Of a stretch of DNA of 11,286 nucleotides, positions 10,074 through 11,286 are shown in pieces. Source of the stretch: a bacterium (lineage in GTDB: Bacteria; UBP6; JAFGXH01); NCBI GenBank assembly GCA_027064085.1, contig JAMOQH010000089.1, positions 1 to 11,286 of the forward strand, written 5' to 3'. Under the pieces are notes generated by a model. It saw nothing but the letters and a program-made list of their open reading frames with translations, did not search any database and was not told where the DNA came from. Position 1 is the stretch's first letter; each line of letters starts with the position of its first letter. A program made the position numbers and the translations under genes.

Positions 10074-10244
10074 ATCTCAATAATTTAATTGTATATCTTT
10101 TGCAAAAAAGATAGTTTATTTATTTAATATACATAATCTCATAATATAATGTAAAATCAGAGTCTTAAAACTCTATATTGTTTTACTAGGGTTGATTTAC
10201 TGTAATATATTGATTTTATTGATAAAAATATTCTGTAAGATTTC

Positions 10245-10273
10245 TTGACTAAAATCTGAAATTCTAATAAAGT
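10245..10273 (+). promoter_or_regulatory. Probable promoter of the cysteine-rich lipoprotein gene
   Basis: TTGACT (10245-10250, 5/6) and TAAAGT (10268-10273, 4/6) are spaced by 17 bases. Transcription from about 10280 would give a leader of about 130 bases that includes all heptamer repeats. In sequence this AT-rich, chance matches are common, so confidence is moderate. Confidence 0.45.
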
Positions 10274-10300
10274 TCTTTGATTAATAGAGAGAATATTTTG

Positions 10301-10345
10301 AAGAAACAAGAAACAAGAAACAAGAAACAAGAAACAAGAAACAAG
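10301..10345 (+). repeat. Heptamer tandem repeat (AAGAAAC) x6 in the lipoprotein leader
   Basis: Six perfect tandem copies of AAGAAAC (10301-10342) are followed by a partial copy AAG. They lie about 70-113 bases upstream of the lipoprotein start codon. A perfect short tandem array is prone to slipped-strand length change. The array falls downstream of the likely promoter, in the 5' leader. A possible tiny reading frame from TTG 10298 runs through it to TAA 10349-10351. Confidence 0.95.
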
Positions 10346-10368
10346 GCGTAAAAAGCTTGTTTTTATTT
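10339..10368 (+). terminator. Terminator-like hairpin overlapping the last heptamer repeat
   Basis: AAACAAG (10339-10345) pairs with CTTGTTT (10356-10362) around a 10-base loop, followed by TTATTT. The left arm is formed by the final repeat, and AAACAAG recurs at each repeat junction, so several alternative hairpins can use the same right arm. With only two G-C pairs it is a weak terminator; an attenuator or RNA-stability element is equally possible. Confidence 0.35.
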
Positions 10369-10413
10369 CTCTAAGGAAGAGGTCACTGGATAGTTTAAAT
10401 TTAGGAGGTTATT

Positions 10414-10842
10414 ATGTCTAAGTTTTTTATATTATTAAGTTTTTTATTTATAGTTAGTACTATGGCATTTATATCATGTTTTGGTTGTGATGGAGATGAT
10501 TGTATTGTTTATAAATCATGTGTAACAGATAAAGACTGTGAAGATGAAGCTGCTCCCGAAGTTTGTATTGAAGCTAAATGTCAGCCAAATCCTTGTGAGG
10601 AAACAGTAAATAACTGTGGGATGGGGAAATGTATTCCACATGATAATCCTGAAACTAAAAATGAGGTAGAAAGGTTTTATTGTCAATGTGATGAGGGCGC
10701 ACAGTTTTATGTACATAATAATATTAAACTTTGTGTTCCTAAATGTAAAACGGATGATGATTGTAATTATGAGCATGGAATGAATTACCAATATTGTGAT
10801 ACTAAAATAGGTAATTGTGTATTTGATAAGCCACAAGAATAA
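10414..10842 (+). CDS. Cysteine-rich lipoprotein with EGF-like domain
   Basis: A 142-residue predicted surface or periplasmic lipoprotein. The hydrophobic signal (1-21) ends in FISC, with C22 as likely lipid attachment site. The mature part has 16 further cysteines, enough for eight disulfides. Cysteines 61, 68, 73, 90, 92 and 107 follow the EGF-like spacing (C-x6-C-x4-C-x16-C-x-C-x14-C). On each side is a related four-cysteine unit: CVTDKDC with C51 and C56, and CKTDDDC with C128 and C135. Such acidic CxTDxDC units are common in secreted proteins of Myxococcota-like bacteria; the function is unknown, probably adhesion or surface structure. The start is secure: perfect AGGAGG 5 bases before ATG. 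It seems to be a single-gene unit with an unusual repeat-bearing leader. Confidence 0.85.
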   Translation: MSKFFILLSFLFIVSTMAFISCFGCDGDDCIVYKSCVTDKDCEDEAAPEVCIEAKCQPNPCEETVNNCGMGKCIPHDNPETKNEVERFYCQCDEGAQFYVHNNIKLCVPKCKTDDDCNYEHGMNYQYCDTKIGNCVFDKPQE

Positions 10843-11023
10843 TTTGTTTTTAACAGCTACTTTGCAACTCTTTTCTTTCTTGTAATTCTATTATTTACTC
10901 CCCACATTTGTGGATTTATTCTTTTAGAGTATAATAATTTTTATTTATTTAATATTTTACTATGTTACCCTATTTGCAATATCATAAAAAGTAAATATTG
11001 TAATTAAATAAAATTTTCTCTAC
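10843..11023. other. AT-rich intergenic stretch after the lipoprotein gene
   Basis: No gene is visible. A weak hairpin CCAC/GTGG (10902-10913) followed by ATTTATTCTTTT may terminate the lipoprotein transcript. Outer bases ACTC/GAGT (10897-10900 and about 10926-10930) could extend the fold. No strong terminator is present. Confidence 0.4.
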
Positions 11024-11068: not shown

Positions 11069-11286
11069 ATGGTAAAAAATAAGGATAAAAATAGAATAGA
11101 AAACCGTTATGATAAAATCTTAAAAGAGCTTTTAGATAATAAAATATTAATGAAACAATTAATTACAGGATTCATTAACGAAGATTGGGTTAAAAATATA
11201 GATTTTAGAACTTTAAAAAAGGAAAAAACAGATTTTTTATCAGAAGACTTAAAAGAATTTAGAAAAGATTTACTTTGGAGTGTTAA
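11069..11286 (+). CDS. Rpn-family (PD-(D/E)XK) nuclease/transposase-like protein, 5' part only
   Basis: The first 72 codons are in the window; the gene continues past base 11286. The start is ATG with a perfect AGGAGG (11059-11064) 4 bases upstream. The pattern YDKILKELL (14-22), LITGFINEDWV (31-41), IDFRTLKKEKTDFLSEDL (44-61) and RKDLLWSV (65-72) matches the N-terminus of the Rpn/recombination-promoting nuclease family (formerly 'putative transposase'). There 'H/YDkxfKel', 'Fl...', 'F....l.e.rsDllw.v' recur. D67 would be the first acidic residue of the PD-(D/E)XK site; the ExK part lies outside. Members are DNA endonucleases linked to RecA-independent recombination, often multicopy. Confidence 0.72.
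   Translation, partial: MVKNKDKNRIENRYDKILKELLDNKILMKQLITGFINEDWVKNIDFRTLKKEKTDFLSEDLKEFRKDLLWSV

Follow-up and report, generated by a model that had tools for sequence, protein, structure and literature searches.

Repeat-based phase variation is known mainly from host-adapted pathogens and commensals. The classical frame-switch contingency genes, e.g. lic and mod of Haemophilus influenzae, carry the repeats in the 5' part of the coding region. In the pil1/pil3 loci of Streptococcus gallolyticus, GCAGA repeats lie in a leader frame between the promoter and a gene for a surface structure; the unit is not a multiple of three, and repeat number decides in which frame the leader is read and how long it is (Danne et al., 2014; PMC3894217). 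There, a strong terminator (-18.7 kcal/mol), set apart from the stop of the short leader, is the switch. The short leader stops well 5' of the terminator, and leaders which end immediately before or in the hairpin lead to high expression (PMC3894217). In hmw1A and hmw2A of H. influenzae 7-nt tandem repeats, (ATCTTTC)n, are situated directly 3' of a surface-protein-gene promoter; they lie between two promoters in untranslated RNA, reach 20 and more copies and act in a graded manner (PMC8262952). Finally, heptamers of the STRR type (cyanobacteria, Xanthomonas, Bacteroidota) and the TAACTGA heptamers of Beggiatoaceae vary in copy number by locus, are numerous, mostly intergenic and have no fixed place (PMC4692102, PMC4679880).

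Here we describe a stretch of 11,286 nucleotides, the window, which is an entire contig (C89) of a draft genome of 3.65 Mb in 195 contigs. It carries a heptamer array in the leader of a lipoprotein gene. The principle of a repeat in a leader frame is that of pil1; the 7-nt unit beside a surface-protein promoter is that of hmw1A/hmw2A. As in pil1, the leader frame has a putative start codon and a ribosome-binding site, albeit a weak one, and is located between promoter and gene. Different from pil1/pil3, a conserved terminator is absent and a conserved peptide is present, the frames which read this peptide (ON frames) overlap or fuse with the downstream gene, the units have 7 nt, and seven loci share three units. 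Unlike in hmw1A/hmw2A, a single promoter is predicted and the array is part of a reading frame. Compared with the STRR and TAACTGA heptamers, the arrays are few (just seven loci found, all leaders), in one place and in a coding context. In the open-access literature searched no case was found of heptamers which gate a conserved leader peptide at several loci.

The array is perfect (TRF score 90); the doubled AAGAAAC unit was matched five times in the window and never in 200 shuffles. It starts about 28 nt behind a sigma-70-like promoter and ends 68 nt ahead of the lipoprotein ATG (Table 1). This bears out the preliminary description, which had noted six AAGAAAC copies in the leader of this gene and a TTG at 10298 with a weak purine site upstream, opening a 17-codon frame to 10351; coordinates and frame were correct, and the predicted promoter places the array in a promoter-proximal leader. 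The copy numbers given for this genome are those of a single draft assembly of the short-read type. The promoter element TTGACTAAAATCTGAAATT is exact at three loci and has one mismatch at a fourth; the 17-nt spacing also occurs at C141, C22 and C179. A candidate for a second promoter at 10387-10415, matching at 9 of 12 positions, overlaps the gene start; by chance alone, several matches of this quality would be expected. An Rfam covariance-model search of the leader gave no match at E <= 2, and a known leader RNA was rejected as an explanation. A search for orthologues of the lipoprotein within the phylum yielded no good match, just weak partial ones.

Table 1. Features of the leader in the window and loci of the genome that carry the same module. 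ON and OFF denote leader frames that do or do not read the conserved segment.
Feature	Position	Strand	Basis or remark
Region 5' of promoter, common to window and C141	10140..10244	+	about 91% identity; BLAST match of 204 bases at 92%
Sigma-70-like promoter TTGACT-17-TAAAGT	10245..10273	+	consensus scan
Weak purine-rich ribosome-binding-like AGAGAGAA	10286..10293	+	sequence
Putative TTG start codon of leader frame	10298..10300	+	phase shared across loci
Leader frame at 6.43 copies, KKQETRNKKQETRNKA, 17 codons, OFF	10298..10351	+	TAA 10349-10351, 4 nt past array
Heptamer array (AAGAAAC)6.43	10301..10345	+	perfect; no stop or start codons in any of 3 frames
Possible hairpin AAACAAG / CTTGTTT	10339..10362	+	not conserved; -7.1 kcal/mol, z -2.7
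Putative conserved coding segment KKLVFISLRKRSL	10350..10388	+	synonymous excess vs C141, C144, C179; ON frame only
Rest of ON frame, DSLNLGGYYV	10389..10421	+	TAA 10419-10421 overlaps lipoprotein gene start
AGGAGG ribosome-binding site of lipoprotein gene	10403..10408	+	sequence
Cys-rich lipoprotein gene, 142 aa	10414..10842	+	no Pfam family
Locus window (C89), AAGAAAC x 6.4			before 142-aa Cys-rich lipoprotein gene
Locus C141, AAGAAAC x 13.4			before 690-aa secreted-protein gene, then lipoprotein gene
Locus C22, AAGAAAC x 3.1 and extra hairpin			adjoins ndk; 5' of predicted 208-aa outer-membrane-type protein
Locus C6, AAGAAAC x 8.4			at contig end, before gene remnants
Locus C179, GTTACAA x 6.1			before secreted protein of ~1,300 aa
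Locus C140, GTTACAA x 7.0			before 646-aa secreted protein
Locus C144, CTACAAA x 18.6			before paralogue of C179 protein

Several further features of the window were noted. Its first 311 positions hold the 3' end of a 16S rRNA followed by tRNA-Ile and tRNA-Ala; a hairpin with a T-run comes after tRNA-Ala (314-342), and a protein gene is next. A 23S rRNA was not found within 11 kb after the 16S end, and therefore the 16S and 23S genes may not be linked in this genome. A TTGATTTTATTGATAA-like sequence is located 5' of the promoter (10205-10230); short matches recur elsewhere in the genome, one of which (in L064) stands shortly 5' of a gene start. Possibly it is a regulator site. An intergenic hairpin, CTCC-CCACATTTGTGG followed by TTATTCTTTT, occurs at 10899-10925 and at L010 ~4459, i.e. 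3' of the lipoprotein gene and 3' of ndk; these are probable terminators with a common sequence. A gene for a YhgA-like putative transposase (PF04754) begins 3' of the lipoprotein gene (11069-11284), and a protein of similar look is encoded just 5' of the C144 leader (L289:38-1216).

The module was present at seven loci, the window and six more, mostly before secreted-protein genes, with the units AAGAAAC, GTTACAA and CTACAAA at 3 to 18.6 copies. The doubled unit and the promoter sequence served to locate further copies. Paralogous modules differ in copy number (3, 6, 8, 13; 6, 7; 18.6). A genome-wide search for ACAANNN x 4, for which C22 with its 3 copies is too short, recovered these arrays and no other convincing one. 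About 0.62 Mb of this genome was sampled and contained no further perfect heptamer array with 2.9 or more copies, save the C144 array, which had been retrieved deliberately, and two short arrays resembling T/A-runs. At C22 the leader frame is broken, and there is a second promoter-like sequence for the gene downstream. The 690-aa protein at C141 weakly matched the permuted papain-like amidase family C92. The C141 locus has two broken duplicates (L009:1-500 at C6 and L011:1088-1500 at C141), in which promoter or leader is fused to the last codons of the 690-aa gene, followed by an internally deleted copy of the lipoprotein gene that comes next at C141. An ORF at L010:1599-1988 contains about 30 asparagines in a run in its C-terminal part, probably from a trinucleotide repeat.

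A start codon precedes the array, TTG at the AAGAAAC loci and ATG at the GTTACAA and CTACAAA loci. At the ribosome-binding-like place the other loci have AGAGAGAA, AGAGAAAA, AAAGG, GAAGAG, AAGAG or AAAAGGG. The starts read TTG-AAG-AAA-CAA, ATG-TTA-CAA and ATG-AAA-GTG-CTA-CAA; the phase between start and unit is constant and the unit is always read ..CAA-NNN-ACA. Because 7 is not a multiple of 3, copy number sets the leader frame. The earlier statement that gain or loss of a copy shifts this frame thus holds: the three exit frames from the window array end at different stops, at 10349 in the hairpin loop, at 10372 after the T-run and at 10419 at the lipoprotein start. The ON frame in the window needs 5, 8, 11, ... 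copies. The present copy numbers leave the leaders of the window, of C141 and of C179 out of frame, and that of C140 as well, the post-array segment of which is just loosely similar. C144 is now in frame; starting with its ATG, 618 codons are open across the array as far as the contig end, into the secreted protein. The ON frame of C141 ends 62 nt ahead of its gene, and those of C144 and C179 continue without a stop into the secreted protein. In this respect C144 and C179 are like genes of the lic/mod type, in which an array near the start codon decides by frame on protein production. Here, however, the long form would carry an extension of 50-95 aa before the signal peptide, and the gene also has its own plausible start inside the long form.

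Does the ON frame encode a peptide? In the window it reads KKLVFISLRKRS(P) after the array. The 39-nt segment reads KKLVFISLRKRSL in the window, KKLVFISLRKRSP in C141 and C144, and KKLTFISLRKRSP in C179. Among these four sequences, which are not fully independent and to which window and C141 contribute just 39 nt each, 13 columns are variable and 2 amino-acid changes were observed vs 9.5 expected at random; none of 20,000 randomisation trials was as low (P<5e-5). C144 and C179 could be compared over 39 codons. In the ON frame pN was 0.064 and pS 0.52, a ratio of 0.12 (P = 5e-5 by randomisation), vs ratios of 0.76 and 0.94 in the remaining frames. The two genes are less conserved in the signal-peptide region (ratio 0.53) than in the leader segment. 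C141 and C144 differ at 5 positions, all 5 synonymous. Judged by this substitution pattern, the stretch 10350-10388 is protein-coding, in a frame which is not open at present, and purifying selection appears to act on a peptide that is read through the array. Start and stop codons are lacking from every sense-strand frame of the arrays, and in the ON frame there is no start codon between array and KKL. Therefore, the conserved peptide is reachable only through the array, and codon-level conservation beyond it argues for translation of the array. A peptide which is conserved, yet mostly out of frame, would be what a contingency locus predicts. The conserved segment is at present out of frame at three of its four loci, which would fit switching and also early decay.

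Searches with the leader peptide gave good matches just to C144 and C179 of the same genome and a weak one to C141; among viral contigs no relative was found. Looking near the end of the leader for arrest motifs of the form R-(A/G)-P/G/S-P, we noted RKRSP in C141, C144 and C179, RKRSL in the window and, in one of the C140 frames, RGSP followed by a stop. RGSP is among the SecM motifs that have been tested, and RSP alone is absent from that list (PMC10987492). The likeness of RKRSP and RGSP-stop to SecM-type arrest motifs may serve as a lead only.

How fast do the repeats change? The flanks of window and C141 differ by about 9% upstream and 18% downstream of arrays that are both perfect, with 6.4 and 13.4 copies. 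The relative G020 (public record JAGOEX01) is from another family of the same phylum. Its perfect AAGAGAC arrays of 4.6, 8.6, 9.3 and 12.9 copies lie in leaders of this kind ahead of genes for secreted proteins; three related leaders (4.6, 8.6 and 12.9 copies) differ by 9-24% in their flanks, and the array of 9.3 copies is the fourth. Perfect arrays in diverged flanks would arise because repeats expand and contract faster than substitutions accumulate. They are as expected from fast repeat turnover and are no proof of switching within a population. In a codon test of the G020 leaders no frame after the array had a synonymous excess, and therefore the coding claim is not extended to G020. Three of its four arrays (L143-L146) are in related leaders before large secreted proteins, which carry thrombospondin type 3, Kelch or LVIVD repeats. 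In the closest relatives, G001 and G002, there were no ACAAGNN arrays, and the leader module had just short weak DNA matches.

A phase-variable leader reading frame, i.e. a contingency locus, best explains the module, and we give this reading a probability of roughly 0.6. Transcription would begin about 20 nt 5' of the TTG or ATG that opens the leader frame. The first leader codons would be the heptamer array, open in three frames and without start codons. Gain or loss of repeats would alter the frame in which ribosomes exit the array. One of the three frames would take them through the conserved segment KKLVFISLRKRSP; in the other two translation would stop early. The ON frame would end in the window at a stop that overlaps the lipoprotein ATG, and at C144 and C179 it would result in fusion into the secreted protein. 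The overlap of the TAA at 10419-10421 with the ATG at 10414 would suit translational coupling. We infer that the leader starts at the TTG or ATG, that copy number changes fast enough for a switch, and that more of the downstream protein is made in the ON frame, owing to translational coupling in the window and to fusion in C144 and C179.

The preliminary description had instead proposed a phase-variable attenuator, in which AAACAAG copies compete for one CTTGTTT arm and ribosome position decides on hairpin formation. In pil1, leader length in fact decides whether a ribosome opens a terminator hairpin (PMC3894217), and here, too, the repeat is inside a leader frame before a surface-protein gene. 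Such pairing is predicted: CTTGTTT (10356-10362) is able to pair with any AAACAAG, with the last copy at -7.1 kcal/mol (z -2.7), and a T-rich stretch is next. However, a scan of the leader for intrinsic terminators found none, the stem is A-T-rich and unconserved, and the arm is probably coding sequence. The whole leader is not unusually structured (z -0.97). The arm pairs over 7 bp with the AAGAAAC unit and not with GTTACAA or CTACAAA arrays; where the unit is changed, at C144 (z 0.1) and C179 (z 0.9 to 1.3), the hairpin is absent and the sequences fold no better than shuffles. No frame stops well 5' of the hairpin. As the stops are in the loop, past the T-run and at the gene start, ribosomes that translate the leader would open the hairpin in every phase, and since even the shortest frame stops inside the loop, all three phases would by comparison with pil1 be of the high type. 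Because every frame puts a ribosome on the hairpin and the hairpin is lost with the unit, such an attenuator is improbable, and competing hairpins were rejected as a general mechanism. Of the original proposal, the phase-variable leader frame of a surface lipoprotein is a fair reading and the predicted pairing stands; the hairpin switch and its control by ribosome position are not supported. The 17-codon peptide, which had been taken as the relevant product, appears to be a truncated out-of-frame version of a longer conserved leader.

A length rheostat as in hmwA would work irrespective of frame, the heptamer number in the 5'-UTR gradually tuning the transcript level. The geometry is the same, a promoter and at once a heptamer array before a surface-protein gene, and in hmw1A more repeats lower mRNA and protein (PMC8262952). 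Yet neither the synonymous excess after the array nor the start codons before each array would be explained, and we consider a rheostat rather unlikely. Alternatively, the array might be a multivalent RNA- or DNA-binding site, with ACAAR bound by a protein such as S1, Hfq or a cold-shock protein; the leader frame would then be incidental. All three units retain this core, and MacGregor proposed such binding for TAACTGA heptamers 5' of start codons in Beggiatoaceae (PMC4679880). Genome contigs scanned with ACAAGWD x 4 gave at least 119 stretches; the matches listed were from Bacteroidota, Cyanobacteria, Chloroflexota, Patescibacteria, Proteobacteria and others and had no leader preference. A special role for the AAGNNAC heptamer was thus rejected: such arrays are widespread off leaders, therefore the heptamer sequence alone is not diagnostic, and the core need not be a regulatory site. 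As binding would also leave the codon-level conservation unexplained, we regard it as very improbable. Lastly, promoter regions may have been duplicated along with a slippage-prone heptamer which has no role. C6 and the second C141 site are broken duplicates of the module, and bacteria commonly have heptamer arrays (PMC4692102). Such a neutral repeat would hardly be confined to one position at seven loci or be followed by a peptide under apparent purifying selection, and we give it little credence. As a side observation, genome G043 from another phylum (L147-L149) contains many heptamer arrays (units AAGGCAC, GGGATCA, GTCCCTG, AATGGCT and others), some of which face inverted copies; it is a repeat-rich genome of the STRR kind.

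The phase-variable leader frame allows a wider interpretation, which is tentative and in our opinion possible rather than probable. Promoter, start, array and conserved KKLVFISLRKRSP peptide may constitute interchangeable phase-variable cassettes before unrelated secreted-protein genes. The repeat would gate translation of a regulatory leader peptide, which would either act on the ribosome or be coupled to the start codon downstream. In a second family of the phylum the arrangement would have arisen again, there with a different unit.

As far as can be read from its sequence, the module looks like a multi-locus random expression switch. One caution follows for annotation: what appears as a hairpin arm in a leader may be coding sequence, out of frame at the sequenced copy number. 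Annotation of a single genome will then miss or truncate such genes. If our reading is true, a 7-nt array gates a conserved leader peptide common to several unrelated surface genes, and repeat-based phase variation would reach into a sparsely sampled uncultured phylum.
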